Position numbers and translations under genes: made by a program. The notes beneath the pieces are model-generated. The model ran no database searches. It had not been told where the DNA came from and saw nothing but the letters and a program-made list of their open reading frames with translations. Source: Draconibacterium sediminis (GTDB lineage Bacteria > Bacteroidota > Bacteroidia > Bacteroidales > Prolixibacteraceae). Taken from it: a DNA stretch of 64,000 nucleotides. Shown piece after piece: positions 44,792 to 61,625 of this stretch (its first letter is position 1; every line of letters starts with the position of its first letter). The stretch lies in NCBI RefSeq assembly GCF_000949475.1, contig NZ_JRHC01000001.1, positions 1,674,001-1,738,000 on the forward strand. Reading direction: 5' to 3'.

Positions 44792-44812
44792 TACAATGGT
44801 TTTTTATGGTGT
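44792..44812 (+). repeat. 21-bp direct repeat, left copy
   Basis: Begins one base after the stop codon of the desulfidase gene; identical over 21 bases to 61191-61211, which lies beside the terminator of the intact tRNA-Pro. A further 13-base match to the tRNA-Pro 3' region occurs at 44839-44851. The spacing to the tRNA-derived repeat differs between the two ends. Confidence 0.85.
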
Positions 44813-44892
44813 ATTTTATACTACTTGCTTATTTGAGCGATGACAGGATTTATTTGACAATGAATCCTAAAAAGGGAGGGATGCTCAACCTA

Positions 44893-45000
44893 AAACCTTT
44901 CTTTCACTTCGTTCGAAGCGTTTTCTTTTTGGGATTTCACTTCAATTGATATCGAGTTTTATTCCAAAAAGAAAACCTTACCGCAAAAGCGGAAAGGTTT
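44893..45000 (-). terminator. Nested inverted repeats, probable terminator of the original tRNA-Pro downstream region
   Basis: Three nested complementarities: AAACCTTTC (44893-44901) with GAAAGGTTT (44992-45000); GTTTTCTTTTTGG (44920-44932) with CCAAAAAGAAAAC (44964-44976), 13 bp perfect; and an inner CCGC-AAAA-GCGG hairpin beside the tRNA fragment. Read on the minus strand, CCGC/GCGG plus a T-rich stretch resembles a terminator just downstream of a leftward tRNA, as seen at the intact copy. Confidence 0.55.
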
Positions 45001-45005
45001 CATGT

Positions 45006-45030
45006 TGTCGGGATGACAGGATTTGAACCT
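45006..45030 (-). repeat. Left attachment site: 3' fragment of tRNA-Pro
   Basis: Identical over 25 bases to 61289-61313, i.e. the T arm and 3' acceptor strand of tRNA-Pro(GGG). The match ends abruptly after GAACCT, so no complete tRNA can form here. This is the classic footprint left at the far end of an element that integrates in a tRNA 3' end. Confidence 0.85.
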
Positions 45031-45455
45031 AGTCCCATTAATGCCTTTATATCAGTGATTTACTGAAGTCTGATTTTTACGGGTCACCGTTTAGTTCACA
45101 TTTAAAGAACTTTACTTATTTGAGCTCAAAATAGGAAATTTTGAAAGGATAATCAACTTATTTTCAGTTTAGTCTCATATTAGCTATAGGTAATTATTTC
45201 AAGAGCTTTAAAGATTATGAAAGTAGGATCGAGACAATTATTAATGAATTTTGTTTAACCATCCTTACTTATATTCATCAATTTATCCAAGTTTGATTAT
45301 ACTTGTAGCTCCTTAATTCCTGTGAGAGCAACAATCTACCTTAGAATCTTATCGAAACGTGGTTGTTTCTTAAATAGAAACAGGTCCTTTAATGGAGCTC
45401 GATTGGAGAATAATGTATCTTTTAAAATAATCATTTCTTATTCATAAATAAAATA
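45031..45455. other. Island left end, no gene
   Basis: About 425 AT-rich bases without a credible ORF between the attachment repeat and the sigma gene promoter. It holds one GGTCACC word (45082-45088), also found three times near the right end, and a small TGTTTCT/AGAAACA hairpin (45364-45382). Confidence 0.5.
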
Positions 45456-45463
45456 TATTTTTG
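45456..45463 (+). promoter_or_regulatory. Candidate Bacteroidota -7 box (TATTTTTG) of the island ECF sigma gene
   Basis: Matches TAnnTTTG exactly; a TTTC at 45434-45437, 18 bases upstream, could be a degenerate -33 TTTG. The start codon lies 22 bases downstream. Confidence 0.45.
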
Positions 45464-45484
45464 TTGTACTAACTTAATTTTAAC

Positions 45485-46060
45485 TTGACGGACCTTAACG
45501 AGATAGAGCTATTACAAAAGCTTGCAAGAGGCGACTCATTGGCTTTTGCTCAATTGGTAAACGTTTATCACCATCGTTTGCTACATTTTTCAATGCATTA
45601 TTTAAACAATCGCGAGCAGGCCAGAGATGTAGTACAGGATGTTTTTTCTGTGGTTTGGGAAGACCATGAAAAATTTTCAGAAGTCAAAAATCTATCTTCT
45701 TGGTTATTCACATTGACAAAGAATCAGTGTTTGAAGAAGATTGAATATCTGAAAGTACGTCAGAAGCATGCCAATACATTGCAATACCGTCAATTAGAAG
45801 TTATAAAGGATTCTTTAGCTCAATTAGATACATCTCCAATTATTTTTGAGGAGATAAACAAAATAATCAAGCAGATCCTTGAAAAACTTCCTTCACAATC
45901 GCGCCAAATTTTTGAGATGAGCCGTTTTGAAAACAAAAAGAACCGCGAAATTGCTGAAGAACTGAATATCTCCATTAAAACTGTTGAAGCTGCAGTAACC
46001 AAATCACTAAAACTCTTACGTCCTGCATTAAAACATTATCTACCAATCGTGTTTTTTTAG
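45485..46060 (+). CDS. ECF-type RNA polymerase sigma factor of the island PUL (TTG start)
   Basis: Start taken at TTG 45485: an in-frame stop lies at 45470-45472 and the next in-frame ATG would remove the first part of region 2, so TTG is forced. Region 2: VNVYHHRLLHFSMHYL, ARDVVQDVFSVVWEDHEKF. Region 4: LEKLPSQSRQIFEMSRFENKKNREIAEELNISIKTVEAAVTKSLKLL. At 191 aa it is a FecI-like sigma paired with the FecR 151 bases downstream, and presumably drives the SusC/SusD/GH genes that follow. Confidence 0.9.
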   Translation: MTDLNEIELLQKLARGDSLAFAQLVNVYHHRLLHFSMHYLNNREQARDVVQDVFSVVWEDHEKFSEVKNLSSWLFTLTKNQCLKKIEYLKVRQKHANTLQYRQLEVIKDSLAQLDTSPIIFEEINKIIKQILEKLPSQSRQIFEMSRFENKKNREIAEELNISIKTVEAAVTKSLKLLRPALKHYLPIVFF

Positions 46061-46211
46061 ATTTTGGCTACAGCATGCTTGATTCTCGAAACCGTTGTTT
46101 AACTCCCTGGTTGAAAATATTTCGGTCTTCATAATCCCATATCCAATTTTTTTTTCAAAATAATCATAGGGTATTTATACTCTCACCGTACTTATTAATA
46201 AAAGCACTGAA

Positions 46212-47195
46212 ATGAATAAGGAAAAACTACATAAATTCGCTTTAAATCAACTTGTAAATCAAACCGAAATTGAAGAGATTGTAAGTTGGATTGAGGCTTC
46301 AGCAGAAAACAAAGAAGAATTTGAAACTTTAAAAAACCTATGGGCTATAGCTGGTTTTGCTAATTACGATTCGTACGTTTCTGTAAAACAAGGCAAAGTC
46401 GTTTCCCTCAACCGTAAGCGAAGCATTCTCTTGAGTTTAACAAAATATGCAGCAATTTTTGTATTAGCATTTTTAGTAGGTAGCATATCCGTTTATTTAA
46501 TTGGGAAACAAGAAGTACCAGAGTATGCTCTGAATGAGATAATAGTACCGGAAGGTGAAAGTGCCGAAGTGTATCTATCTGATAATACGCATGTGTGGTT
46601 GAACTCGGGGACAAAATTGACTTATCCAGCTCAATTCGATGGAGAAACACGTGATGTACAACTTAGTGGAGAAGCGTATTTTGATGTAACACACAATTCT
46701 GAAAATCCTTTTCATGTTAAAACCACGAACCTAACTGTAAAGGTTCTGGGAACAAGTTTTAATATGGAAGCCTATGAGGAGGCAAGAGATGTAAACATAA
46801 CCTTGGTTGAAGGAAAAATTAATTTACAAAACAATGCTGGTGAAGTACTTACTGAGCTTGCTCCGGGCGAAAATGCAGAGTTCAACCTAACTCAAAAGAA
46901 AATAAACATTAGCAAAGTTGACACCGAATTTTACACCTCATGGAAAGATGGTTATCTGGTGTTTAAGGATGAGACATTAGAAGAAATTGCAGAAAAGTTT
47001 GAACGTTGGTATAATGTTAATGTAGTTTTCGACGATGAGAAAATCAAACAGTTGAGATATACAGGAACAATACTTAAAAGTAAACCAATCGACCAGGTAT
47101 TGGAAATTCTAAAATACACAACTGGCATCGAATATTCAATTGAAATCATTAATAATAAACCAAGTATAATTCACTTAAAAAACAAGCCTATGTAA
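46212..47195 (+). CDS. FecR-family anti-sigma factor of the island PUL
   Basis: 327 aa. Cytoplasmic part 1-74, membrane helix about 75-97 (KYAAIFVLAFLVGSISVYLI), periplasmic FecR domain about 110-230 (IIVPEGESAEVYLSDNTHVWLNSGTKL, VKVLGTSFNMEAYE, VTLVEGKINL-like) and C-terminal DUF4974-like part (TLEEIAEKFERWYNVNVVFD). It relays transporter occupancy to the sigma factor upstream. Its organisation mirrors the FecR at 35667-36821, but the sequences are clearly divergent. Confidence 0.92.
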   Translation: MNKEKLHKFALNQLVNQTEIEEIVSWIEASAENKEEFETLKNLWAIAGFANYDSYVSVKQGKVVSLNRKRSILLSLTKYAAIFVLAFLVGSISVYLIGKQEVPEYALNEIIVPEGESAEVYLSDNTHVWLNSGTKLTYPAQFDGETRDVQLSGEAYFDVTHNSENPFHVKTTNLTVKVLGTSFNMEAYEEARDVNITLVEGKINLQNNAGEVLTELAPGENAEFNLTQKKINISKVDTEFYTSWKDGYLVFKDETLEEIAEKFERWYNVNVVFDDEKIKQLRYTGTILKSKPIDQVLEILKYTTGIEYSIEIINNKPSIIHLKNKPM

Positions 47196-47208
47196 ATGTA
47201 AACAAGAA

Positions 47209-47239
47209 GACCAGGAAATATTGGTAGTATTTCCCGGTC
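47209..47239 (+). promoter_or_regulatory. Hairpin between fecR and susC in the island PUL
   Basis: GACCAGGAAATA (47209-47220) pairs with TATTTCCCGGTC (47228-47239) with one A-C mismatch and a 7-nt loop; a short T-rich stretch follows. Same position relative to genes as the hairpin at 36846-36873. Confidence 0.5.
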
Positions 47240-47272
47240 CGTATTTATTTACAATTAGTCTTCCGCAAGAAG

Positions 47273-50200
47273 ATGAGTATTAATCGTAAACATTTCAAAT
47301 TTATGAAAAAAATTTATTGTCGAAACCGCAATTGGTTTCAAAAAGTATTTAGGATTATGAAAATAACTTTATTTCTATGCCTATTTAGTGTTATTCAGGT
47401 TCTTGCACTTCCTTCGGTGGGGCAAGCAAAGTTCAATTTGAAAATGGAAAACACAAGTATTGAAGATGTTCTTCGAAACCTTGAAGAGAACTCGAGCTAC
47501 CATTTCTTTTATAAAAGCGAGGATTTAGCCGGGAAACAAAAAATCAACATTGATGTTGAGCGGAAAAATGTATTTGAAGTATTAGACGAAATACTTCCTG
47601 ATTTGCAACTAAGCTATGAAGCTTTTGATAAATATATTGCCATTAAGGCAACGGAAACGAGCAAGGGATCATATCAGTCAGGAGCAGATCAAAAATTGGT
47701 TACAGGAAAAGTAACCAACGAACAGAGAGAACCACTTCCCGGTGTAACTGTAATTATAAAAGGAACCAATAATGGAACCGTTACCAATGTGGACGGAAAT
47801 TTTAGTTTGTCGGATGTTACAAGCGATGATGTTTTGATATTCTCGTTTGTAGGGATGACAACTCTGGAAGTCTTGGTTGGAGAGCAAACCTCTATCAACA
47901 TAGAATTGGCTGCAGATGCTATTGGTATTGAAGAAGTGGTGGCAGTAGGTTATGGAATTCAAAAGAAAGAGAACCTTACCGGTGCGGTAGCTTCTGTAAA
48001 CATGGAAGAATTATCAAACAGACCCACCTCAAACATGGTAAACTCATTGCAAGGTGTTGCTCCTGGCGTGTTTATCTCTTCACCGGGAGGCCAACCCGGA
48101 GCTGATCAGGGAAATATTTTGGTCCGCGGTATCGGTTCATTTCAAAATTCCTCACCACTCATCATAATGGACGGTGTATCAATTACTCTACAGGATATGG
48201 CCTCTTTGAATCCAAATGACATCAAAAATATAAGTGTTTTAAAAGATGCTGCATCCGCCGCAATTTACGGTTCCAGAGCTGCAAATGGTGTCATACTAAT
48301 AACTTCAAAAGAAGGTAAAAATCAAAAATCAGGGATTCGGCTGGATTCTTATTATGGATTCCAAAGTGCTACCGTATTGCCTGAATTAGTAAATGCTGAG
48401 CAATATGCGCGTTTAGCAAATGAAGCAAGAATCAATGGTGGACAGGCTCCATATTTTTCTGAGGAACAAATCTCACTGATGATGAATGATGATCCATATG
48501 ATGGATTTGATAACGTTGACTGGATAGATCAAACTTTCAGAACCGCACCACTGACAAGCCATACCTTGACTTTTAATAAAGGGGATGAAAAGCTCAGCAC
48601 GACACTCTCGTTGGGGTATTTGAAGCAAGATGGTATAATGATAAAAACCGGCACGGAAAGGATTAATTTCAGGGGGCGTGTTGATTATGATATCACAAAT
48701 TTTTTGAGAATTGGCATGAACCTGAATGGATACCGCACGAATAATAATCAATTTCTGGGCTCTGTTGGAGGTACCGATGGATCTATAATGCGCAGATTAG
48801 TTAGGACTCCACCTTCAGCCCCGGTTTATTATCAAAGCGGGGGTTACTTTTCTGAATTTGATAATGTTCCTGGATATAATACAATCCAAAACCCTCTGCG
48901 CATTGCTGATGGCGGAACAGACGACGAGCTTTCAAGACGTATAATTTCCAGTGTTTATGCTTCAATTCAACTGGCACATGGATTAACCCTGAAAACTCAG
49001 CTTTCCTATAATTACCTGAACAGGGATCAGGAAATTTGGAACAAACGTCAGATTATATATGATGACAATGGTGATTTAGTTGTTGACACTGGGAAAAATG
49101 CATTAAGAAATACTGCATTTAATCGGGAAGAATATCAGAATGAAACTTTTTTAACCTACGAAAAATTGTTTGCCGATAAACATGACTTTAAATTTTTGGC
49201 AGGTTATAGTTTTTATAAACTTAATACAAACCAGTATTCAGCTTATGGCGAAGATCTTCCAAACAACACAATAAAAGTTTTAAATGCCACTTCTGCAAAT
49301 TTTAGTGTTTCTGGGAGTAAGTGGAGTAATGCGCTTGAGTCTTGGTTTGGAAGAGTAAACTATATTTTCAATGAAAAGTATCTATTTGAGGGTAATGTGA
49401 GGTACGATGGCTCTTCTCGATTTAATGAAGAGAATCGATGGGGCGTATTCCCTTCAGTTTCGGCAGGATGGATTGTCTCAAAAGAAAATTTTCTTTCAGG
49501 GCTTAGTTGGTTAGACCAATTAAAACTTAGGGGAAGCTGGGGATTGCTTGGGAACCAGAATATTAATGACAGCTATCCATATATACAAACTTACGACGTT
49601 GGACAGAACTACTTGTTTGGGAGTGTTCCAAGCCTAACCGGTGGAGTTGCTGTTACAAATATTGCAAACAATGCAGCAACATGGGAGAGTGCTGAGACTT
49701 TTAATATAGGCTTGGATGCAACTCTTTTTAAACGGTTGAATGTAAATTTTGATTATTTTGACAAAATCACAAATGATGTTCTGATTCAGTTACCAATTCC
49801 AGGCACACTGGGAAATGTTTCTGCACCTTATGTGAATGATGCAACTATCCAAAACAAAGGCTGGGAAGCAGTAATTTCTTACCGAAATAGTTTTAATAAG
49901 TTAACTTACAATATCAGCTTTAATATTTCAAATGTTAAAAATGAGATTATTGATTTAAAAGGGCAAGAGTTTTATCTGGATAACCGTATCCACAGAGAAG
50001 GTGAGCCTTTCGGATCATGGTTCGGTTTGAAAGCCATTGGGATATTTAAAGCCGAAGAAGAGCTTCAGAATGCTGCATTTCAACATAATCAAACAACACT
50101 TGGAGACATACATTATGCCGACCTTTCTGGTCCAAACGGTGAGCCGGATGGAATAATTGACAGTTACGATCGCACAATAATTGGGAATAGTTTCCCTGAA

Positions 50201-50674
50201 TATGTATATGGTTTTAATTTGGGATTAAACTTCAAAGGATTTGATGCTAACGCATTTTTTCAGGGTGTTAAAAATGTAGATATTTATTCCAGTGAGACGG
50301 CTGAAAATACAGGTTCTAATAATGCTTATTATACTTGGACAACCAGGTGGCTCGATCGTTGGACACCGGAAAATCCGGATTCGCAATTACCGCGGCTAAG
50401 AACTGTTTGGGAACAAAATGAATTGGTTTCAAGTTTTTGGCTTGAAGATGCATCCTATCTGAGGTTAAAAAATATTGAGATTGGTTATACTCTGCCTAAT
50501 GCTCTGACCAGTAAATTCAAAATTTCAAAATTAAGGCTTTATGCAGGAGGACAGAATTTGTTTACATGGACGAAATTGAAAAATTATGATCCCGAGAAGC
50601 GGACAAATGATGTTCGCAATGAGTCCTATCCGCAGACAAAAGTAGTTCAGTTTGGAATAAATTGTGAATTCTAA
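47273..50674 (+). CDS. SusC-like TonB-dependent transporter with STN domain (island PUL)
   Basis: 1133 aa from ATG 47273; in-frame ATGs at 47303 and 47357 are alternatives within the signal region. Signal hydrophobic stretch ends near LALPSVGQA; STN domain about 57-120 (FNLKMENTSIEDVLRNLEEN); CarboxypepD_reg-like domain about 143-215 (VTGKVTNEQREPLPGVTVIIKG); plug (VVAVGYGIQKKENLTGAV, LIIMDGVSITL, LKDAASAAIYGSRAANGVILIT); barrel ending TKVVQFGINCEF. A penultimate Phe-containing C-terminus fits outer-membrane insertion. It imports the products of the GH enzymes downstream and signals through FecR. SusD follows after 11 bases. Confidence 0.93.
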   Translation: MSINRKHFKFMKKIYCRNRNWFQKVFRIMKITLFLCLFSVIQVLALPSVGQAKFNLKMENTSIEDVLRNLEENSSYHFFYKSEDLAGKQKINIDVERKNVFEVLDEILPDLQLSYEAFDKYIAIKATETSKGSYQSGADQKLVTGKVTNEQREPLPGVTVIIKGTNNGTVTNVDGNFSLSDVTSDDVLIFSFVGMTTLEVLVGEQTSINIELAADAIGIEEVVAVGYGIQKKENLTGAVASVNMEELSNRPTSNMVNSLQGVAPGVFISSPGGQPGADQGNILVRGIGSFQNSSPLIIMDGVSITLQDMASLNPNDIKNISVLKDAASAAIYGSRAANGVILITSKEGKNQKSGIRLDSYYGFQSATVLPELVNAEQYARLANEARINGGQAPYFSEEQISLMMNDDPYDGFDNVDWIDQTFRTAPLTSHTLTFNKGDEKLSTTLSLGYLKQDGIMIKTGTERINFRGRVDYDITNFLRIGMNLNGYRTNNNQFLGSVGGTDGSIMRRLVRTPPSAPVYYQSGGYFSEFDNVPGYNTIQNPLRIADGGTDDELSRRIISSVYASIQLAHGLTLKTQLSYNYLNRDQEIWNKRQIIYDDNGDLVVDTGKNALRNTAFNREEYQNETFLTYEKLFADKHDFKFLAGYSFYKLNTNQYSAYGEDLPNNTIKVLNATSANFSVSGSKWSNALESWFGRVNYIFNEKYLFEGNVRYDGSSRFNEENRWGVFPSVSAGWIVSKENFLSGLSWLDQLKLRGSWGLLGNQNINDSYPYIQTYDVGQNYLFGSVPSLTGGVAVTNIANNAATWESAETFNIGLDATLFKRLNVNFDYFDKITNDVLIQLPIPGTLGNVSAPYVNDATIQNKGWEAVISYRNSFNKLTYNISFNISNVKNEIIDLKGQEFYLDNRIHREGEPFGSWFGLKAIGIFKAEEELQNAAFQHNQTTLGDIHYADLSGPNGEPDGIIDSYDRTIIGNSFPEYVYGFNLGLNFKGFDANAFFQGVKNVDIYSSETAENTGSNNAYYTWTTRWLDRWTPENPDSQLPRLRTVWEQNELVSSFWLEDASYLRLKNIEIGYTLPNALTSKFKISKLRLYAGGQNLFTWTKLKNYDPEKRTNDVRNESYPQTKVVQFGINCEF

Positions 50675-50685
50675 AATCAACAACA

Positions 50686-52176
50686 ATGAAAAAATATATC
50701 ATAATAATTACAGTCATTTTAATGACAGCATATGGTTGTAATGACCAGTTGGAACTTTATAATCCCAATGAGATATCAGAAAATACATTCTGGACATCTG
50801 AATCCGATGCTGAATTGGCATTGACAGGAGTTTATAATACTCTTCAGGCTGGTACTGTTTATGGAGCCAGATTTCGGGAATTTGATGGTTTTGGAGGTAT
50901 TGGTTATTTCCAATGGCAGACAGATGGCCTTATTATCACAGAGGGAGGTGCTACCACCGAGAATGATTATTACAATATAATTTGGAAAGGATATTATAAT
51001 GTGGTTAATAGAGCAAATCTGGTAATTGATAATGTCCAAGCTGATATTGATGGATTAAGTGATAACCGGGCAAATCAAATTGAGGCTGAAGCAAAATTTG
51101 TCAGAGCGTTGGCATACTTAACCCTAACAATGTTATACCGTGATGTTCCTTTGATAGCCCATGAACAAAAATTTAGTGAACGCTTTGTGGAAAAAGCAAG
51201 CCAAAGTGAAATCGTAAAAATTATATACGATGATGTGGATTTTGCTGTGAATAACTTGCCGGATAGTTGGAATGGAGATGATTCAGGCAGAGTAGATAAG
51301 TGGGGAGCTTTGGCGTTGAAAGCACGAGCTCACCTGTATTTTAAAGATTGGACAGTAGCTGGTAATGCTGCAAAAGAAATTATAGATGGTGGCAGATTTT
51401 CTTTATTTCCGGATTTTGGAAAACTCTTTTCGGTTGAAGCAGAGGGAAATGAAGAATCTATTTTTGCTATTCGTTTTGAATCAGGACTTGGAGAAGGAGA
51501 AGCATTCTCTGGGACATACAAAAGAGTAACTCGTGGTACTATGAGGCCCCTTCCTGAATATATAAACGCTTTTTATTGCACAGATGGCTTGCCTATTGAT
51601 CAATCACCATTATATAATCCGTCATCAATGAATTTCAATAACAGAGATCCACGGCTCGATTTTTCCGTCCTTTACAAAACAGAAAAATGGGTAGATAATT
51701 TACCAATCAACAGTAATTCACCTACAGGATATGATATACAAAAGTATCAACGAAATGTTCTTGGGGAGTATAATGACGGGCCACAAGACTTTATGGTATT
51801 TAGATATGCAGATGTTTTATTAATGAGAGCGGAAGCATTAATTGAGCAAAATATTCTTACGCAAGAGGTATATGATCTGATTGATTTGGTTCGTCAGCGT
51901 CCGAGTGTGAATATGCCAAAAATTAAAAATATTGAAGGCACGGGTCTTTCTCAGAAGGAATTAAGAGAAATTCTTCACCATGAAAGAACTGTAGAGTTTG
52001 GCTTCGAGGGTTTAAACTTTTTTGATTTGAAAAGGTGGGATAAGCTGGAAGAAATCTATCGATCTGTCATCTTCCACAATAGAGTTTATATGGAGGGACG
52101 AACTGAAGTATGGCCTATTCCGCAACGCGAAATTGATAATAATCCAAATCTTGAGCAGCATTCTGAATGGAAGTAA
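50686..52176 (+). CDS. SusD-like glycan-binding lipoprotein (island PUL)
   Basis: Lipoprotein with AYGC (Cys18), 496 aa. RagB/SusD features: LELYNPNEISENTFWTSESDAELALTGVYNTL, AEAKFVRALAYLTLTMLYRDVPLI, WGALALKARAHLYFKDW, MVFRYADVLLMRAEALIEQ and HHERTVEFGFEGLNFFDLKRWDKL. Ends NNPNLEQHSEWK. Surface partner of the SusC upstream. By eye its DNA is more AT-rich than the xylan SusD genes. Confidence 0.92.
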   Translation: MKKYIIIITVILMTAYGCNDQLELYNPNEISENTFWTSESDAELALTGVYNTLQAGTVYGARFREFDGFGGIGYFQWQTDGLIITEGGATTENDYYNIIWKGYYNVVNRANLVIDNVQADIDGLSDNRANQIEAEAKFVRALAYLTLTMLYRDVPLIAHEQKFSERFVEKASQSEIVKIIYDDVDFAVNNLPDSWNGDDSGRVDKWGALALKARAHLYFKDWTVAGNAAKEIIDGGRFSLFPDFGKLFSVEAEGNEESIFAIRFESGLGEGEAFSGTYKRVTRGTMRPLPEYINAFYCTDGLPIDQSPLYNPSSMNFNNRDPRLDFSVLYKTEKWVDNLPINSNSPTGYDIQKYQRNVLGEYNDGPQDFMVFRYADVLLMRAEALIEQNILTQEVYDLIDLVRQRPSVNMPKIKNIEGTGLSQKELREILHHERTVEFGFEGLNFFDLKRWDKLEEIYRSVIFHNRVYMEGRTEVWPIPQREIDNNPNLEQHSEWK

Positions 52177-52398
52177 TCCCTGTTAAAGATTGACGAGTAG
52201 AAGATGTGATTGAGAGTATACTCAATTACATCTTTTACTCCTTTTACACCAATAACTTGCCTGCGTATATGTGAATGGATTTGCTTTGCAATAACCTGCA
52301 AAGGTTCTGATGTTTTGCCTAATTATGGTTAATATGAGGCATTTATTTGAAGAATTAATTTCTACCTCAAACATCATCTTTTAACATTAAATATAAAT

Positions 52399-54219: not shown

Positions 54220-54344
54220 TTGTTTTGTTGAATTGAAGGTAATCAACTGATTGTTAGGCTTCATTGCTATGTATTTAAAAATCTGGAATACTAAAAATAA
54301 TGTATATAGAAGTCATATATAATAAATTTATACCATAGGATAAT

Positions 54345-55718
54345 ATGAAAAGTCTACTTAAAGTTTATATCATTTTATTACATATAGTTTTCAATTTTGC
54401 TTGTTCGAAATCGGATTTCGAAGTTTCAGCTAAAGGTCTTGATGATCAAACCGCTAATGACTCAACACACATGGCTGATAACTGGGAATTGGCTTGGTCA
54501 GATGAATTTGAAGGGAGTACCTTAAATGCAGAGTATTGGATAGTGGAAGATGGATTCTGGCAAAAGCATGTCGATAATCTTTACAAACCTGAACGTGTTA
54601 CTGTTAAAAATGGCAGTTTATTCATTGCCGCTGATAAGGTAGGTGATAAATATGAGAGTGGGAAAATTCTGGGTAAGGACTTGATTTCAATCAGTGACAG
54701 TTGCAAAATAGTTGCCAAAATTTGTTTCCCAACTGGGAATGGGCTCAAATCTGCTTTTTGGATGTTGGGAACCAATAAAGATGAAGTGGGATGGCCCAAA
54801 TGCGGAGAGATTGACATTATTGAGCAACTGGGGTCTGAAAGCAACCGTTCTCATCACACTGTACATTTTTGGGATGAATCAAATTCTATAAAAGATCAGA
54901 TAGGGAAGGTATACCTCAATTCAGTCTCAATGCATCAAGTGTGGCATGAAATTACCGTTGAACGAGAAAATTCAATGATAAAGTATTATATCAATGGCCG
55001 ACTAATTGAAACTAAAAATATAAGCTCTGGCATGACTGAACTCCAAAATTCAATGTATTTGATTCTTCAATTGGACGTAGGGAGAGAAGTTCTTTGGACT
55101 GGTGGAACAGACGATTCTACGCCCTGGCCAAGTCAACTTGAAGTTGATTATATAAGAGTTTATAAAAAGGGCGGAGGTGTTGTGGGAATGGGTGCAAACT
55201 ACGATTATGGCCCCACCTCAGAAGGAGTTGATGAAGGTGATCCGGATAATCTTCTAGTCGATGGCAATTTTGAAAATACACCTTCTAATTGGAAGGAAGA
55301 TGGGAAGGATTGGGAAACGCTTGAATACTGCGCACCCCGGGTTCACTTAAATGATGGACAGCGATATGACCCTGCTGGCATATACTCTGGTAACCGAAGT
55401 ATGGCATTTACTGGCCATGATATAGTCCTGAGACATAAAGTAGTTGTTACTCCTGGTAAATCATATCAATATTCGTATTGGGCTAGAAAGGAAATTGAAG
55501 AATCAAATATTGCTTTTACAATTAAAAAAGCCAAAGAAGGAGGAGCCCTTGAGAATGTAATTAACCCAATTAAGATGGAGATCACTGATACAAATACATG
55601 GGTCAAATTTATTGGCACTTATGAACCTAGTGAAGGTGTTTCCGAGATCATCCTGAATTTTTACAAGACAGGAAATCAGGTGGGTTATATAGATGAAGTT
55701 GTTTTCAAAGAATTGTAA
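54345..55718 (+). CDS. GH16 endo-hydrolase lipoprotein with C-terminal CBM4_9-like domain
   Basis: 457 aa; lipobox NFAC (Cys20). GH16 domain about 45-280, with WPKCGEIDIIEQLG holding Glu155, Asp157 and Glu160. It is closely similar to the GH16 half of the gene upstream (shared VGWPKCGE.DIIEQLG, ILQLDVG.E.LWTG), so the two arose by duplication. The C-terminal domain (about 305-457, NLLVDGNFENTPSNWK to YIDEVVFKEL) is a jelly-roll of the CBM4_9/CBM22 type that probably binds the polysaccharide. A glycine-rich linker (KKGGGVVGMGANYDYG) joins them. Same operon as the fusion enzyme and sulfatase. Confidence 0.87.
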   Translation: MKSLLKVYIILLHIVFNFACSKSDFEVSAKGLDDQTANDSTHMADNWELAWSDEFEGSTLNAEYWIVEDGFWQKHVDNLYKPERVTVKNGSLFIAADKVGDKYESGKILGKDLISISDSCKIVAKICFPTGNGLKSAFWMLGTNKDEVGWPKCGEIDIIEQLGSESNRSHHTVHFWDESNSIKDQIGKVYLNSVSMHQVWHEITVERENSMIKYYINGRLIETKNISSGMTELQNSMYLILQLDVGREVLWTGGTDDSTPWPSQLEVDYIRVYKKGGGVVGMGANYDYGPTSEGVDEGDPDNLLVDGNFENTPSNWKEDGKDWETLEYCAPRVHLNDGQRYDPAGIYSGNRSMAFTGHDIVLRHKVVVTPGKSYQYSYWARKEIEESNIAFTIKKAKEGGALENVINPIKMEITDTNTWVKFIGTYEPSEGVSEIILNFYKTGNQVGYIDEVVFKEL

Positions 55719-55805
55719 TAAATAAGAACGTAAAGTAGAAATTATCAGGTATTATGAGCAGTTGTCATTGTGCATCTGCAGTAGTCCTCATAAAAATTAA
55801 ACAAG

Positions 55806-57257
55806 ATGAATAAACTAATAAAAGTTTTTGCTGGATCACTTTTATCAGCAAGTATTTGTTCCTGCAACATAAATACCGAAAATAATGTAAATGCAGGTGG
55901 TATCGAAAAGCCAAATGTAATCGTAATTTTTGCCGATGATATGGGGTATGGTGATATGAGCAGTTATGGTCATCCCACTATAATAACACCACATTTAGAC
56001 CGTCTGGCACACGAAGGGCAAAAGTGGACAAACTTTTATGCATCAAATAGTGTATGTACTCCGAGCCGAACAGGTTTGTTAACCGGAAGGTTACCAATAC
56101 GTAGCGGAATGTGTAGCGATAACAGACGAGTATTGTTTCAAGATTCCAAAGGCGGATTGCCTCAAACAGAAATCACGATTGCTAAATTGCTAAAACAAAA
56201 AAACTACAAAACGGCGTGTATCGGCAAATGGCATTTAGGTCATCTTGAAGGCTTTCAACCATTGGATCATGGATTTGATTCTTACTTTGGAATACCATAT
56301 AGTAACGACATGGATCGCCCGGAAGGAGTCAATGCGCGTGAAGTATGTAATAATCCGGATATTAAATACTTTAATGTTCCGTTAATGCGAAACAGAGACA
56401 TTATTGAACGGCCGGCAGATCAAAATACAATCACTAAAAGATATACAGAGGAAACTATAGATTTTATAAGAAAAAATAAACAGTCACCCTTTTTCATTTA
56501 TCTTGCTCATTCCATGCCACATGTGCCACTATTCGCATCAGAAGATTTTGATGGTACAAGTTCCCGTGGTTTATATGGTGATGTTATTCAGGAAATTGAT
56601 TGGAGTGTTGGGCGCATAATTGAAACCTTAAAAGAAGAGGGACTAGATAAGACCACTTTGGTAGTATTTACATCAGACAATGGTCCGTGGTTAGTATTCA
56701 ACGAAAACGGGGGGTCTGCAGGACTGCTTCGAGATGGGAAGGGTACATCGTATGAAGGAGGTATGCGTGAACCAGCAGTCTTTTGGTGGCCTGGTAAAGT
56801 TAAACCAGGTGTAATTCAACAAATAGGATCAACATTGGATTTATTCCCGACCATTAATAAAATTGCCGGTATTGAAATTCCAAATGATCGAATTTATGAC
56901 GGTTATGATATAAGCGATGTTCTTTTCAATCATAGATATTCAGAGCGTAAAAATATCTTTTACTATCATGGAGAAAAAGTTTTTGCTATTAGACATGAAA
57001 ATTGGAAAATACATTATAAAACACTGGAGAATATTTATACGTCAGAAGCTAAGTTCGTAGAACATGATCCCCCTATGTTGTTTAATCTTGCAACTGATCC
57101 TTCTGAAAAATACAATGTTGCATCGGAAAATCCGGACATCATAAAGTCATTTAACAAAATTCTTGCGACACACTTGAAAACAATCAAACCGGTAGAAAAC
57201 CAGCTTGAAAAGAGAGATGATATAGAGAAAGAGGGTGTAGAGAAGAGTAGTTTATAA
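55806..57257 (+). CDS. S1-family sulfatase (formylglycine type)
   Basis: 483 aa; N-terminal signal with CSC (Cys20) suggests a lipoprotein. NVIVIFADDMGYGDMSSYGHP holds the metal-binding Asp pair; SVCTPSRTGLLTGR is the sulfatase signature with Cys84 to be oxidised to formylglycine by an anaerobic maturase (CxPSR); GKWHLGH, HSMPHVPLF and FTSDNGPW complete the active site. The domain continues to about 470. The family removes sulfate from polysaccharides, so the island locus probably targets a sulfated glycan. No maturase gene is in this window. It is the last cargo gene and is followed by a terminator. Confidence 0.93.
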   Translation: MNKLIKVFAGSLLSASICSCNINTENNVNAGGIEKPNVIVIFADDMGYGDMSSYGHPTIITPHLDRLAHEGQKWTNFYASNSVCTPSRTGLLTGRLPIRSGMCSDNRRVLFQDSKGGLPQTEITIAKLLKQKNYKTACIGKWHLGHLEGFQPLDHGFDSYFGIPYSNDMDRPEGVNAREVCNNPDIKYFNVPLMRNRDIIERPADQNTITKRYTEETIDFIRKNKQSPFFIYLAHSMPHVPLFASEDFDGTSSRGLYGDVIQEIDWSVGRIIETLKEEGLDKTTLVVFTSDNGPWLVFNENGGSAGLLRDGKGTSYEGGMREPAVFWWPGKVKPGVIQQIGSTLDLFPTINKIAGIEIPNDRIYDGYDISDVLFNHRYSERKNIFYYHGEKVFAIRHENWKIHYKTLENIYTSEAKFVEHDPPMLFNLATDPSEKYNVASENPDIIKSFNKILATHLKTIKPVENQLEKRDDIEKEGVEKSSL

Positions 57258-57305
57258 TAGTTTTTCACTCTTAACAGCACTATCTCATAAACTGTGTAAA
57301 TAGGA

Positions 57306-57336
57306 ATACCGGGAGTTGCACTCCCGGTATTTTTTT
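57306..57336 (+). terminator. Intrinsic terminator ending the island PUL
   Basis: ATACCGGGAG (57306-57315) and CTCCCGGTAT (57321-57330) form a perfect 10-bp stem with loop TTGCA, followed by six T. Confidence 0.93.
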
Positions 57337-57358
57337 GCTTAATTTTGAACTTTACACA

Positions 57359-57649
57359 GTAATCAAAAAAGAAGATTTATTAAATGATGATTTTCTGAAA
57401 CAGACCCAGAAGCGAGGCATCGAAAAGATGCTCGAAGGCGCACTTGATGTTCATTTGGGCTATGACAAAGATTAAAAGTATGATAACCCTAATGCCCGTA
57501 ATGTCTATTCATAAAAGAAAGTCCGCACTTCCTTGGGAGAATCTAACATTCAGGTTCCACGAGATCGTGATGCTTCGTTTAATCCCATGATTGTTCCTAA
57601 ACGCGGGAACATGGTTGATGGCCATACAAAATTGGGGCATCATCCTTAA
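57359..57649 (+). pseudogene. IS256-family transposase remnant
   Basis: One frame reads KEDLLNDDFLKQTQKRGIE, then KMLEGALDVHLGYDKD, stop, KYDNPNARNVYS, stop, KKVRTSLGESNIQVPRDRD, then ASFNPMIVPKRGNMVDG before drifting to a stop at 57647. This is the N-terminal quarter of an IS256-type (mutator) transposase with two in-frame TAA codons (57473-57475, 57512-57514) and the catalytic domain missing. It is inactive, a scar of an insertion sequence between the PUL and the mob genes. Confidence 0.85.
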
Positions 57650-57713
57650 TCAGTTCTTAGTCATATTTGAGAAAAGGATTTAACTTTAGATAGCTAGCTT
57701 CATACCGTCAAGA

Positions 57714-57827
57714 TATCTTCTATTATCACGTATAAGAAGTGTTTGCGATAAGACATGGAGATTGGAAAATACAGAAAACAACACCGCTAAATTTATCACT
57801 AAAGAGCATAAGGGAAACTTTAATTAA
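57714..57827 (+). pseudogene. Sulfatase fragment (decayed)
   Basis: Partial translation reads EVFAIRHGDWKIQKTTPLNL after a broken SIIT/YYH region. This parallels FYYHGEKVFAIRHENWKIHYKT near the C-terminus of the intact sulfatase at 55806-57257. Frame is interrupted by a stop upstream and nothing else of the gene is recognisable. It suggests a second sulfatase gene was once here. Confidence 0.55.
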
Positions 57828-58142
57828 CATATGGAGCGATAGTTCCGGAGATATAAAACAGAATAGAAAGTTTATATACATACACTTTGTCAAAAGTATA
57901 AGATCATAAAACTAATAATTACTTTTTATCTTAAAACTCATAATTTTTCTGTTTGTGCAAATTTCGTTTGAATTAATTTTATTTGACTGATATTGAGCTT
58001 ATTTGCTGTTTTCTTTCTCTGTTCTGTTACCTAACTTTATTTCCATAAAAAGACCCTTTCGAGGTAGGATAGCAAGTTTATGTTTTGGTAAGACCAAAAC
58101 CCATGTTTAGCATCCCGTTGGTCTAAAAAATGGTAATAAAAT
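57828..58142. other. Gene-free stretch upstream of mob genes, candidate oriT region
   Basis: About 315 AT-rich bases without an ORF. The last 60 bases contain GTTTTGGT (58082-58089), AAG, ACCAAAAC (58093-58100), a perfect 8-bp hairpin, and a second GGTCT at 58130. Inverted repeats just ahead of mobC/relaxase genes are the usual setting of an origin of transfer; the nick site cannot be identified by eye. Confidence 0.45.
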
Positions 58143-58487
58143 ATGGTGCAATTTAACAAAGGTGGACGTCCACGAAAATTGGATGGTGAGAAGATGAAAT
58201 ATAAGGTAACGGTAAAAATGTCGACCGTAGAATATTACTGCCTAATTGGCAAATCGAAAGAAGCCGGAATTTCACAAAGTGAGTTAATCAGGCGTTCAAT
58301 TATGAATGCAACAGTTGTTCAACGCCTGACACCCGAACTGAATGCTGAGATTAGAAAACTTTCAGGAATGGCCAATAACCTCAACCAGATCGCACGAAAA
58401 GCCAATGCCCTTGGTTACGATCATATTCGGAGCGAATACCTGTTTCTAGCACGTAAGATTGACCGAATCATAAATAAGATGTTATGA
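58143..58487 (+). CDS. MobC-like relaxosome accessory protein
   Basis: 114 aa. A basic N-terminus (KGGRPRKLDGEKMKYKVTVKMS) leads into a ribbon-helix-helix type segment (KEAGISQSELIRRSIMNA), followed by the MobC signature LSGMANNLNQIARKANALG. It should bind near the origin of transfer and help the relaxase open the strands. Its stop overlaps the relaxase start by 4 bases (ATGA), so translation is coupled. Confidence 0.87.
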   Translation: MVQFNKGGRPRKLDGEKMKYKVTVKMSTVEYYCLIGKSKEAGISQSELIRRSIMNATVVQRLTPELNAEIRKLSGMANNLNQIARKANALGYDHIRSEYLFLARKIDRIINKML

Positions 58488-59389
58488 TTGCCAAGATTAC
58501 GACAGGTGGTGATTTTGCCGGGGCAGTAAATTATATTCTTGATCCAAAAAAAGCGGCTGAATTGTTAATGGGAGAGGGCGTACGTTTGAAAAATACCAAT
58601 TCGATTACAAAAAGCTTTGTTGCTCAAACAGAACTCAATTCGCGGGTAAGCAAACCGGTAGGTCATATTTCCCTGGATTTCTCGGTTCAGGATAAAGCAA
58701 AGTTGAATAATGAGTTTCTTCTAAAAATTGCAGATGATTATCTAAACAAAATGGGAATCATAAATACCCAGGTTATAATAGCCCGGCATTACGATAAGGA
58801 GCATCCCCATATTCACATTGTATATAACAGGGTCAACAACCAGGGGAAAACGATATCCAATAAAAACGATCGTTACCGTAGTGAAAAGATCTGTAAAGAG
58901 CTTACACGAAAGAATGACTTGTATTTTGCCAAGGGAAAAGAAAATGTGAAGGTTCACCGGCTGAAAGAACCTGACAAAACAAAATATGAGATTTATAATT
59001 GTCTAAAAGAACTGATTTCCCAATGCAAAGATATGGATGAACTGGAAGCTAAACTGAAAAAAGTAGGGATAACAGTAAACTACAAATGCAGGGGGAATAC
59101 GAATGTTGTTCAGGGGATTTCGTTTACTAAAAATGATTTAAAATTTAACGGTTCCAAAATTGATCGGCAATTCAGCTATTCAAAAATCAAGTACAGGCTG
59201 GATGAGAATAAGAGGCAGGAATACTTTGCTGTTATTGATAATCCATCACGGGATAAAGCTTTCTTTCAGTTAATAAAAGAGGGATTACTTCAGGCAGAGA
59301 AGGATGAAAAAAGACAACGTAAAAGAGAACCCAATCAACGATTTAAGCCTATTAAGAAAAAGAACAGGGGGAGGGGGCACCGAATGTAG
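58484..59389 (+). CDS. Relaxase/mobilisation nuclease (MobA/VirD2-like)
   Basis: 301 aa. Nicks the transfer origin and carries the strand during mobilisation. N-terminal AVNYILDPKK holds a candidate catalytic Tyr17. The metal-binding histidine motif HYDKEHPHIHIVYNRV gives His102, Asp104, His107, His109 and His111. RYRSEKICKELTRKN is also typical of Bacteroidota mobilisation relaxases. The C-terminus is very basic (RQRKREPNQRFKPIKKKNRGRGHR). No coupling protein or Tra genes occur in the island, so transfer would depend on another conjugative element. Confidence 0.9.
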   Translation: MIAKITTGGDFAGAVNYILDPKKAAELLMGEGVRLKNTNSITKSFVAQTELNSRVSKPVGHISLDFSVQDKAKLNNEFLLKIADDYLNKMGIINTQVIIARHYDKEHPHIHIVYNRVNNQGKTISNKNDRYRSEKICKELTRKNDLYFAKGKENVKVHRLKEPDKTKYEIYNCLKELISQCKDMDELEAKLKKVGITVNYKCRGNTNVVQGISFTKNDLKFNGSKIDRQFSYSKIKYRLDENKRQEYFAVIDNPSRDKAFFQLIKEGLLQAEKDEKRQRKREPNQRFKPIKKKNRGRGHRM

Positions 59390-59716
59390 ATCATAAGGTT
59401 TTCCCAAATCTTCAACAAATTGATTTCAATTCAGGCAAACGTCAAAAGCTTACGGCATAAACGCAGCCAGCAAATTGACAAGAGTTTTGAAATGGTTTGT
59501 GTTCTTTGCTGCCAATACTCCTTCCTCATACTTCGAAAGGAGACTTGGCATCAAAGTATTGGAAAAACACTTGCCAATTTACTGTCCTCCGGCGCAATCT
59601 TTCAGTCCATTTATTCCGCCTTCTTTTGCCTAATGCCAGAATTGGAAAGAGCTGGTGTTTACGATTTGGGATTAAGGACAGTTATGGGAAATTGAAACGG
59701 ATGTTTAAATGAATAA
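59390..59716. other. Gene-free or decayed stretch between relaxase and integrase
   Basis: 327 bases. Short plus-strand ORFs exist (59420-59695, 59497-59712) but have no recognisable family. A different frame reads FVFFAANTPSSYFERRLGIK before a stop, which looks protein-like. It may be a decayed gene; I cannot support an active one. Confidence 0.4.
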
Positions 59717-60997
59717 TTAAGATAGCTTCTGTACCTTTCCTTTTTCTAATTCAGTTGAACTTTCTTTTTTGCTTTTGTTTCCAAGCTTTTCCTGAAGTGC
59801 TTCCATGTCTGTAGCGATCTTCTTTTCAACCACCTTGGCATAAATCTGGGTTGTTTTTAGGTTGGTATGCCCAAGCATTTTACTAACCGATTCAATGGGA
59901 ACACCATTGGTAAGCGTTACCGTGGTTGCAAAAGTATGACGGGCAATATGAAACGTCAGATTTTTATCAATCTCACACAAATCAGCAATTTCTTTCAGGT
60001 AACTGTTTAGTTTCTGGTTGGAGATATTAGGGAAAACAGTGCCTTTGTTTTCTGAACGTGGATGATCCTTGTATTGGTCAATAATTAATTGGGCTTGTTT
60101 TAAAATTGGAATACGGACCGGAGTGGAAGTCTTTTCTCTTTGTGTTATGATCCATGACATACCATTAATTCCTTTTCTGATATTATTGGGAGCCAGGTTT
60201 GCCACATCGATATAAGATAATCCGGTGTAACAGGCAAACACAAAAAGGTCACGAACATAGCTAAGCCGTTCCATTTTGAATTTTTTCTTTTCAATGGCAG
60301 CTAATTCTGTTTCGGTTAAGAAATCGCGTTCTACTTTCTTAAAATGTAGTTTGTAAGCTGCAAAAGGATCTTTATCCAGCCATTCCATGCGAACGGCCAT
60401 GGATACCATTTTTCGAAGTCGTTCGAGGTGTTTCATAACCGCATTATTACCCATTGGCCGTTGATGATCGGTTGGTTTGTGTTTGCGGAGATAAAACTCA
60501 AAATCAGTGATAAATCGGTAGTTTAGTTCGGTTAAGAAAATATCCTCCCTGTTCATCTTTTTTTGCAGGAACAATTCAATATATTTTGCAGTAGTATGGT
60601 AGTTTTTGAGCGTTCCCCATTTTAGGTTCAAATCCATGCTGACGTTGTGATATTCGATCAGTTCCTTAAGCGTTTTCCCGGTTTCTTCAATACCATAAAA
60701 TTTGTCTCTGATAGCATCAGGCGTTATTACAGCCTTCTCTACAACAAGTTCCTGGTAGTAACTGGTTAATTGGGAGCGGATCTGCTCAAGATAGGAGTTA
60801 AGCCGTGCAATTTCGGGAGACTTTCCTTTTGCCAAACCTTGCCCTTTGTTCCAGTTGGTAGCAGGTATTCGCTTTTTTACAGAGATTTCACAGCGGTTGG
60901 AGTCAACCGTAATACGTGCGTAAATTGGAGCTGTACCATGCATGGTTTTAGCTCTTTTTAGCACAAAATGAATTCCGAAAGTACTTTTTGTTTTCAT
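59717..60997 (-). CDS. Tyrosine recombinase/integrase of the island
   Basis: 426 aa. Arm-binding region about 1-90 (FGIHFVLKRAKTMHGTAPIYARITVD in part), SAM-like core-binding domain about 105-210, catalytic domain about 225-395. Active-site residues: Lys289, His350-x-x-Arg353 (HIARHTFATT), His377 (LGHTNLKTTQIYA) and nucleophile Tyr386. The usual first arginine is replaced by Ser261 (CYTGLSYIDVANL), with Arg287 two residues before the Lys. The same substitution is known in the CTnDOT integrase IntDOT. It reads away from the tRNA-Pro site and lies about 290 bases from it, as expected for the integrase of an element inserted there. Confidence 0.94.
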   Translation of the reverse strand: MKTKSTFGIHFVLKRAKTMHGTAPIYARITVDSNRCEISVKKRIPATNWNKGQGLAKGKSPEIARLNSYLEQIRSQLTSYYQELVVEKAVITPDAIRDKFYGIEETGKTLKELIEYHNVSMDLNLKWGTLKNYHTTAKYIELFLQKKMNREDIFLTELNYRFITDFEFYLRKHKPTDHQRPMGNNAVMKHLERLRKMVSMAVRMEWLDKDPFAAYKLHFKKVERDFLTETELAAIEKKKFKMERLSYVRDLFVFACYTGLSYIDVANLAPNNIRKGINGMSWIITQREKTSTPVRIPILKQAQLIIDQYKDHPRSENKGTVFPNISNQKLNSYLKEIADLCEIDKNLTFHIARHTFATTVTLTNGVPIESVSKMLGHTNLKTTQIYAKVVEKKIATDMEALQEKLGNKSKKESSTELEKGKVQKLS

Positions 60998-61011
60998 GTC
61001 AAATCATTTAA

Positions 61012-61177
61012 TTTGGTTCAGGTTCCCAAAAAGGTCACCTTTTACTGCTGTTTTTTTGCTCCAAAGTGAACCAAACCGCACCATTTTGAATGAGAAAAAA
61101 CCTATGTAACTGTCATATTGATAGCTTGTTATGAGCTGCGCGGTGACCTCTAAGGTATGAAAAATTAGAGGTCACCG
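61012..61177. promoter_or_regulatory. Integrase upstream/attachment region with clustered inverted repeats
   Basis: TTTGGTTCA (61012-61020) and TGAACCAAA (61067-61075) form a 9-bp inverted repeat. CGGTGACCTCTAA (61141-61153) and TTAGAGGTCACCG (61165-61177) form a perfect 13-bp inverted repeat with an 11-nt spacer. GGTCACC/GGTGACC occurs at 61033, 61142 and 61170. These could be arm-type integrase sites or the integrase operator. Confidence 0.5.
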
Positions 61178-61190
61178 GATCGGACCCATT

Positions 61191-61211
61191 TACAATGGTT
61201 TTTTATGGTGT
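61191..61211 (+). repeat. 21-bp direct repeat, right copy
   Basis: Identical to 44792-44812. It lies just outside the tRNA-Pro terminator on the island side. Confidence 0.85.
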
Positions 61212-61223
61212 TTTTTGACCTTA

Positions 61224-61264
61224 TAAAAAAAAGAAAGCCTGTAAATCATTTGATTTACAGGCTT
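61224..61264 (-). terminator. tRNA-Pro terminator
   Basis: AAGCCTGTAAATCA (61235-61248) and TGATTTACAGGCTT (61251-61264) are perfectly complementary. On the minus strand the hairpin is followed by a T-rich run (complement of 61224-61234), and it lies 27 bases beyond the tRNA 3' end. Confidence 0.85.
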
Positions 61265-61290
61265 TTAGTGTTTTTTAGATTTTGAATCTG

Positions 61291-61365
61291 TCGGGATGAC
61301 AGGATTTGAACCTGCGACCCCTGGTCCCCCAGACCAGTACGCTAACCGGACTGCGCCACATCCCG
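61291..61365 (-). tRNA. tRNA-Pro (anticodon GGG)
   Basis: 75-nt cloverleaf on the minus strand: acceptor CGGGATG with CATCCCG, discriminator A, D-loop GCGCAGTCCGGTTAGCG, anticodon stem CTGGT/ACCAG around loop CTGGGGG (anticodon GGG, reads CCC), T arm CAGG-TTCAAAT-CCTG. CCA is not encoded. Its 3' 23 nt are duplicated at 45006-45030, the far end of the island, and its 5' part overlaps the end of a GIY-YIG ORF. Confidence 0.95.
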
Positions 61366-61611
61366 ATGATTATTTATATAATTGAGTATTGCTTCTCTTT
61401 TCTTCCAGCCTTTTAACTGTTTTTCAAGTTTCATTGCTTCCGAACGAGAGTTGCAAATCTCTGAGTATATCAGTTTCCAAGGTCTTTTTGCAGAGGTAGA
61501 ACGATTATAACCCATATTGTGTTTTTTCAACCGTGCTTCCAAATTTGCTGTTTGACCAATGTAAAAACTACTGTCAATTTCCGATTTCAATATGTAAACA
61601 AAGAACTTCAT
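61342..61611 (-). CDS. GIY-YIG family endonuclease-like protein overlapping tRNA-Pro
   Basis: 89 aa from ATG at 61611. FVYILKS...SFYIGQT (residues 4-21) is the two-part VYI/YIG signature; ARLKKHN carries the conserved Arg and SEAMKLEKQLKGWKK the conserved Glu. Single-domain members (UPF0213-like) are common in Bacteroidota but have no firm function. The last residues RDVAQSG and the TAG stop are translated from the first 24 bases of the tRNA-Pro gene. A longer frame up to 61737 runs back through a tRNA remnant and is not a plausible start. Confidence 0.85.
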   Translation of the reverse strand: MKFFVYILKSEIDSSFYIGQTANLEARLKKHNMGYNRSTSAKRPWKLIYSEICNSRSEAMKLEKQLKGWKKREAILNYINNHRDVAQSG

Positions 61612-61625
61612 TTTTTTTAGTCTTT

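Follow-up and report, generated by a model that had tools for sequence, protein, structure and literature searches.

The elements NBU1 and NBU2 of Bacteroides combine a tyrosine integrase with mobilisation genes, have the 3' end of a tRNA gene as their target and require a conjugative helper; the attachment site of NBU1 is a tRNA-Leu gene, and the integrase IntDOT carries a serine at the position of the first catalytic arginine. The subject of this report is a 64,000-nucleotide stretch of the Draconibacterium sediminis genome (contig NZ_JRHC01000001.1, positions 1,674,001 to 1,738,000; the whole stretch is called the window), in which an island at the 3' end of a tRNA-Pro(GGG) gene is very probably an integrative and mobilisable element (IME) that carries a polysaccharide utilisation locus (PUL) as cargo and is a member of a family within the genus. 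The presence of PULs on mobile elements is already established, and the window island adds a member. ImmeDB lists 47 PULs on mobile elements of gut Bacteroidetes, which like the window island are SusC/SusD loci on chromosomal mobile elements (PMC6907783), and passages in two further papers describe PULs as often located in such elements (PMC13188876, PMC8531407). The window family differs from the gut elements in occurring in a free-living genus and in having one integrase lineage tied to tRNA-Pro, and the window element in that its 16 kb contain little beyond one PUL and the mobility genes. Full-text literature, with subscription journals largely outside it, yielded only general work on PULs on mobile elements and no recognised description of this tRNA-Pro island family.

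The island resembles NBU1 and NBU2 in its tyrosine integrase, its mobilisation genes and its tRNA 3' end target, and differs from them in its PUL cargo, in having no recognised excision region, in a relaxase that falls below the NCBIfam MobB cut-off and in its target, which is tRNA-Pro(ggg) rather than the tRNA-Leu of an NBU1-type element. With CTnDOT and IntDOT it shares an integrase with an Arm-DNA-bind_5 domain and a serine at the presumed first-arginine position, and sister islands hold TraG-, TraJ- and TraM-type genes; it is unlike CTnDOT in its tRNA-Pro target and in that no type IV secretion system (T4SS) was found on it. Six T4SS proteins of an integrative and conjugative element (ICE), that of genome G005, gave no match in the window, and the T4SS of its own that marks a CTnDOT-type ICE is present in G005, G008 and G024 and was not found in the window island. 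What the latter has is what defines an IME, namely its own integrase, a relaxase with an accessory protein and no recognised transfer apparatus, and attachment sites at both ends.

Attachment sites and mobility genes

The original prediction was of a mobilisable island integrated at tRNA-Pro with a PUL as cargo, and the repeat, the genes, the conserved arms and the empty site of a sister island all support it. Its coordinates for a 25-bp repeat of the tRNA-Pro 3' end at both extremities, with the intact tRNA at the integrase end, proved exact (Table 1). The two copies of the repeat, TGTCGGGATGACAGGATTTGAACCT, are identical, its first 24 bases have no further copy on either strand within the 64 kb, and it forms the 3' end of the intact tRNA-Pro(ggg) gene. 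The left end had been read as the original downstream flank of the tRNA with its terminator, and this has held up: the terminator gives a DNA fold z of -2.8 (3 of 200 shuffles were equally good), and the 157 bp from 44874 to 45030, core included, are 91% identical to a stretch contiguous with the intact tRNA-Pro(cgg) on contig C16 of the same genome. In G004, pieces 69-82% similar to the left stretch abut tRNA-Pro(ggg). The hairpin at the right end of the island is stronger (z -5.8, 0 of 200 shuffles equally good). Comparison shows that the element is inserted at the 3' end of tRNA-Pro(GGG). It brings substitutes for both the tRNA 3' end and the terminator, which keeps the tRNA intact, and the displaced native 3' flank now lies 16.3 kb off, as attL.

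The left flank also holds a 21-bp piece of right arm (44792-44812) and a 13-bp piece of core (44839-44851), which are read as scars of older insertions. Degenerate-looking right-arm and core copies were seen about 100-300 bp past the tRNA 3' flank at two other loci, L061 (9040-9160) and L070 (9240-9430), where they were judged by eye, as well as in the window (44792-44851), where they came from a sequence search; possibly all are scars of earlier insertions at the same tRNA.

Pfam confirms the tyrosine recombinase, the MobC-like protein and the relaxase that had been noticed between the repeats, and all three reading frames are open. Residues K289, H350, R353, H377 and Y386 of the integrase, which we take to be catalytic, are invariant in all nine aligned sequences, and the presumed position of the first catalytic arginine is occupied by serine in eight of them and by alanine in one (TGLSYID). 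The integrase would bind GGTCACC arm sites, a single one in the left arm and three in the right; after excision MobC and the relaxase would nick a candidate oriT upstream of mobC, the CTnDOT-type conjugation apparatus of a co-resident ICE would carry the strand to a recipient, and there the integrase would dock the element in a tRNA-Pro gene.

Sister islands and empty sites

The DNA comparisons covered the genomes of 60 relatives, 36 of them placed in the same genus as the source organism (G denotes a relative's genome, L a fetched locus and C a contig; G005 is taken as Draconibacterium orientale FH5T, NZ_CP007451.1). A left-end search, followed by fetching of the matched places, gave nine islands with both arms, whose lengths including the tRNA are 16.4 kb (window), 9.5 (G029), 17.0 (G003), 45.6 (G007), 62.9 (G008), 63.6 (G012), 76.5 (G034), 177 (G005) and 184 kb (G024), or 652,123 bases in all. 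Whole-arm matches lie at the island ends, and right arms also show short self-matches. The motif GGTCACC lies 76-77 bp inward from the left end in eight of the nine islands, and a trio of such sites precedes the right core by 256-268, 147-148 and 119-120 bp in seven (257/148/120 in five islands, 256/147/119 in G005 and 268/148/120 in G008). G007 has the left site only and G003 none, and both are without an integrase. In total 29 of 47 GGTCACC sites fall within about 0.9% of the 652,123 island bases, and they are putative integrase arm sites.

What the islands carry varies. SusC/SusD are found in six of the nine (window, G003, G005, G008, G024 and G034) and were not found in the islands of G007, G012 and G029. 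The G005 island has TraG, TraM, DUF4134/DUF4138 and coupling-protein genes as well as a weak match to TraJ, and homologues of its transfer genes occur in the G008 and G024 islands; all three have the appearance of ICEs. As judged from these sequences, the D. orientale genus is host to a family of apparent ICEs, IMEs and remnants with shared ends and integrase type and differing cargo. The tRNA of G005 at the integrase end is represented by its 3' part only. A second integrase of the family lies at tRNA-Pro(tgg) in the window's own genome, on contig C19, with a matching left end on C13; if the break between the two contigs falls inside one island, that island would be rich in sulfatases and SusC/D, with a relaxase and MobC present. 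At G029:C1:3857884-3858062 the right arm of one island is followed directly by the left end of the next, apparently tandem family elements at one tRNA-Pro. In G007 (L059, 5174-5183) the mobility genes are missing between the equivalents of window positions 58129 and 61154, so that an oriT-like stretch and the right arm remain next to some 45 kb of cargo, which lacks SusC/D and includes an open reading frame (ORF) of 3123 aa.

Movement of these islands within the genus is suggested by the comparison of their DNA with that of their surroundings. The side of the site that runs from tRNA-Pro(ggg) to trxB is common to the window and to G034, G007, G013, G029, G009, G004, G002 and G005, and in G029 and G034 an integrase 96% identical to the window's stands at this very tRNA. 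The backbone is 93.0% identical in G029 against 83.1% for 2.2 kb of right flank, its part 59525-61288 is 94.7% identical in G034 against 81.6% for 2.2 kb of right flank, and in G012, where the island is at tRNA-Pro(cgg), the values are 91.6% and 87.6%, the latter over a 4.2-kb flank compared with the source organism's contig C16. Islands more alike than their surroundings are what recent movement predicts. G009, which has the closest flank of the genomes fetched (97.3%), has another kind of tyrosine integrase at this tRNA, which makes it a contested site. The tRNA-Pro(ggg) of G013, which adjoins trxB, is followed by a hairpin and then by a gene for a 924-aa GH2-type glycosidase, and in G034 76.4 kb separate the tRNA from the same gene (protein 92.6% identical). 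The glycosidase gene ends 271 bp from the core in both genomes, which are 93.3% identical in DNA up to and including the 21-bp core, and this core is at both ends of the G034 island. G013 and G034 thus show the exact site of a sister island, whose integrase is of the window's type, in its empty and its occupied state, and the core is present in the G013 empty site, whereas absence of the repeats from empty sites would have spoken against the original prediction.

The evidence for an empty counterpart of the window's own locus is weaker than for the G034 sister, and the window's left-flank gene was not seen next to a tRNA-Pro in any genome. A gene pair encoding a GH43 enzyme and a sugar transporter of the MFS type is beside tRNA-Pro(ggg) in D. 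orientale (L057) and beside tRNA-Pro(cgg) in the window's genome (contig C16, at about 75.7 kb; L023), which points to recombination between tRNA-Pro loci.

Next to the tRNA on its trxB side the window has an insertion of about 395 bp (61367-61761), defined relative to six relatives, that includes an 83-aa GIY-YIG nuclease gene (PF01541; 61366-61614, minus strand) and, by eye, an apparent broken second copy of the tRNA 5' half at 61627-61726. The nuclease has 54 homologues in 37 genomes; among the 30 loci listed, each of about 2-3 kb, 27 contain tRNA genes (Asp, Val, Ser, Arg, Asn, Cys, His and more; three pairs of loci overlap), often with tandem atypical tRNA copies, and the insertion looks like a tRNA-gene-associated mini-element. 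One locus (L288, G008:C4:3732238-3734717) has six tandem GIY-YIG copies at a spacing of 446-447 bp near tRNA-His.

Cargo, vehicle and rival explanations

The run of genes from the sigma factor to the sulfatase has the make-up of a PUL, that is, SusC/SusD and glycan-active enzymes in a single same-strand run, with a dedicated regulator recognised by homology. The sigma/anti-sigma pair, SusC/D and sulfatase of the original prediction all stand, as do its two glycoside hydrolase genes, except that the first proved to be a GH43-GH16 fusion, so that the two genes hold three catalytic domains. The GH43 half aligns near full length with exo-beta-1,3-galactanase-type structures (6eug, 6euf, 3vsf, 7bys, 5flw) and differs from the GH43 exo-beta-1,3-galactanases (subfamily 24; 3vsf, 7bys and 5flw) in being fused to a GH16 laminarinase-like domain; 6eug and 6euf, which carry the PDB name Beta-glucanase, we take to be Bacteroides galactanases. 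The GH16 half matches laminarinases, the N-terminal part of the CBM4_9 protein matches GH16 laminarinase structures, and the sulfatase matches arylsulfatases of several specificities. A guess at moderate confidence, from these matches, is that the substrate is a beta-1,3-linked galactan or glucan bearing sulfate. Since SusC has an STN domain, the sigma factor, FecR and SusC form a plausible sensing chain, judged by their families, which would sense this sulfated galactan or glucan and switch on its import and cutting.

That one transfer would give a recipient the whole trait was overstated in the original prediction. No transfer apparatus or excisionase was recognised; the sulfatase, with its Cys-type motif, would require a maturase, and among the ten genes scanned there was no sulfatase maturase, surface glycan-binding protein (SGBP) or further sugar-processing gene. 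Relics of a transposase and of a second sulfatase lie between the sulfatase and mobC, so the PUL has probably lost something; the broken Mutator-type transposase matches PF00872 just under the cut-off (E 2e-4), and the piece beside it (57332-57472) has no family match.

Table 1. Features of the island and its borders (coordinates of the window)
Feature	Coordinates	Strand	Basis or remark
Left flank, tRNA-Pro 3' flank	44792..45005		terminator 44973-45000 (minus)
attL core, 25-bp copy of tRNA-Pro 3' end	45006..45030	+	repeat search
Left attachment arm, kept in sister islands	45031..45176	+	GGTCACC at 45082-45088
ECF sigma factor (TIGR02985)	45485..46060	+	Pfam, NCBIfam
FecR-type anti-sigma factor	46212..47195	+	Pfam
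SusC/RagA TonB-dependent transporter, STN signalling domain	47273..50674	+	Pfam (STN, regulatory domain, plug); TIGR04056
SusD-family glycan-binding protein	50686..52176	+	Pfam
GH43-GH16 fusion	52399..54219	+	Pfam and PDB structure matches
GH16 (laminarinase-like) with CBM4_9	54345..55718	+	Pfam and PDB structure matches
Sulfatase, arylsulfatase-like, CTPSR motif	55806..57257	+	Pfam and PDB structure matches
Relics region	57332..57849	+	Mutator-type transposase piece 57515-57646; second sulfatase-like piece 57699-57784
Mobility backbone	57965..61288		DNA identity to sister islands 93.0% (G029), 91.6% (G012)
Candidate oriT hairpin upstream of mobC	58083..58099	+	stretch 58060-58142, fold z -3.1
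MobC/NikA-like accessory protein	58143..58487	+	Pfam
Relaxase PF03432	58484..59389	+	Pfam; nearest NCBIfam Bacteroid_MobB, below cut-off
Tyrosine integrase	59717..60997	-	Pfam Arm-DNA-bind_5, SAM_5, Phage_integrase
Right attachment arm, putative GGTCACC sites at 61033 (+), 61142 (-), 61170 (+)	61033..61176		last two close a 12-bp perfect stem
Element-borne terminator-like hairpin behind tRNA	61233..61266	-	DNA fold
attR core, within intact tRNA	61289..61313	+	repeat search
tRNA-Pro(ggg), intact	61290..61365	-	tRNA call

An important consideration is whether the 16.3 kb ever moved as a unit. A small element of integrase and mob genes may have captured, or been joined by, a PUL that had arrived separately through insertion sequences or recombination, and we regard this as a serious possibility, somewhat short of an even chance. 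Base composition, for which a comparison of inside and outside had been proposed, is in its favour: G+C content at third codon positions (GC3) is 0.27-0.33 in the seven PUL genes, 0.38-0.39 in the three mobility genes and 0.36-0.44 in 24 outside ORFs of 250 aa or more each (PUL against outside, P 7e-5), so that the mobility genes lie within the outside range, the PUL lies below both, and cargo and vehicle differ in history. The border between cargo and backbone is also sharp, with identity beginning at 57965-57971 in G007, G029 and G012, and the transposase relic sits, with the sulfatase piece, between the PUL and the mob genes. Against it, the left arm, its GGTCACC site and the core lie beyond the PUL, an arrangement shared with the sister islands, and the PUL is therefore inside the unit now. 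A composite origin is moreover compatible with the favoured reading as an IME, as capture of the PUL by the vehicle may have preceded a move.

Nor was the PUL seen at this place without the integrase and mob genes, an arrangement that would have told against the original prediction, since the DNA from SusD to sulfatase (50686-57257; the query began after the sigma, FecR and susC genes, and at most four candidates were scored per genome) had no near match in the 60 relatives, only sulfatase stretches of 66-72% and short pieces. Likewise, when 395 genomes of the class were searched for the GH43-GH16 fusion at E<=1e-100, with up to three candidates scored per genome, the 394 besides the window's own gave no match.

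A second rival is that the island came in by this route and can no longer leave, the PUL having become an ordinary chromosomal locus; this is possible, if rather doubtful. In its favour, no excisionase was recognised on the island, transposase and sulfatase relics lie inside it, and mobility genes are broken in sisters, with the relaxase split in G029, the integrase split in G012 and the equivalent of 58130-61153 lost from G007; the lack of a recognised excisionase and the split genes of the sisters also weigh against the IME reading. Opposed to it are the open frames of integrase, MobC and relaxase in the window island, the identity of the two cores over 25 bp, and the completeness of the arms and arm sites. 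Other points also count against the IME reading. An ORF of 91 aa that separates the relaxase gene from the integrase gene matches nothing in Pfam; the tRNA-Pro(tgg) sister island, in those parts of the window's own genome that were read, the rest not being searched, has a relaxase and MobC and no T4SS; in four genus members with a homologue of the left-flank gene at 83-91% (the range covered by this check), the 6.5-16 kb read on its surroundings include no tRNA; and in G034 a piece of right arm lies inside the island, 5 kb from the right end and beside a second integrase, the sole interior case among the nine islands, so that two ends may be too simple a definition of one unit there.

The third rival, a gene cluster that merely happens to lie between a tRNA and a tRNA-like 25-mer, is so improbable that it was rejected, given the 25-bp identity, the conserved arms beyond the core and the sister island with its exact empty site, and no point in its support was found.

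An integrase lineage at tRNA-Pro and a possible exchange of PULs

A search of species genomes with an alignment of the nine sequences found 118 relatives of the integrase. Among the best 80, from Bacteroidota hosts ranging from Prolixibacteraceae to Cyclobacterium, Tenacibaculum, Maribacter and Sphingobacterium, 60 have a tRNA-Pro reading toward the integrase 203-515 bp upstream; four have another tRNA (Cys, Val, Val, Arg), one is on too short a contig, and 15 have no called tRNA, six of which match the tRNA-Pro 3'-end pattern with up to four mismatches. Of the 64 loci with a tRNA, 63 have a terminator-like hairpin behind it on the island side, no more than 110 bases away (0.2 for base-shuffled copies), which indicates that a terminator travels with the tRNA end on these elements.

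Two counts bear on a possible over-representation of PULs. The nine islands have 13 SusD-like proteins in 0.652 Mb against 342 matches in the 50.7 Mb of their genomes (P 7e-4; the query was the same, the database sizes differed and some SusDs give two genome matches), a density three times that of the genomes which is driven by the two largest islands; when these are left out the figures are 4 against 2.0 expected and give no support (P 0.14). SusC was found within the 4-7 kb read at 8 of 24 left-end rows, one row (909 bp) being too short to judge, and at 7 of 22 left ends against about 5% expected when two neighbouring ends were merged and the short row dropped; these rows are the better matches fetched, neither all nor random, and several have degenerate cores.

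In five of the best 80 loci, many of which have little downstream sequence, the integrase is followed directly by sigma factor, FecR, SusC and SusD (L197, L204, L205, L206 and L208, from Sunxiuqinia, Gaoshiqia and Maribellus). L206 (Sunxiuqinia indica) and L208 (Gaoshiqia sediminis) are 90.9% identical in DNA along 4.2 kb that start at the arm, take in the integrase, sigma and FecR genes and reach into susC. There identity is at least 90% for roughly 115 codons, which encode the signal peptide and STN, and falls to 67-79% in the hundred that follow, after which no lasting similarity is left; beyond this head they hold unrelated SusC bodies, SusDs and enzymes. L204 (Sunxiuqinia dokdonensis) has only the arm and integrase in common (91%) and carries another PUL. 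This pattern comes from three genomes, rapid divergence of SusC bodies would look similar to exchange, and the far ends of the Sunxiuqinia and Gaoshiqia elements, sought by a core pattern with up to one mismatch, were not found on the same contigs. That one integrase lineage is a phylum-wide tRNA-Pro dock, and in the branch of Draconibacterium, Sunxiuqinia and Maribellus a PUL shuttle with exchangeable cargo, is accordingly put forward as a tentative and rather unlikely reading.

PULs are a main source of differences in diet among Bacteroidota, and where close relatives differ by gain or loss of a PUL, horizontal transfer of an unspecified kind is usually held responsible. In the present case the vehicle has a name, and its ends, its target, its putative arm sites and an exactly matched pair of empty and occupied sites are in hand. 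The genus, moreover, has a sequenced type strain in D. orientale FH5T, and PUL transfer outside the gut becomes testable. If the pattern of a constant head and a variable body is true, the constant sensing head with its swappable body would put a captured PUL under the element's own control at once, and would explain how new PULs come under working control.

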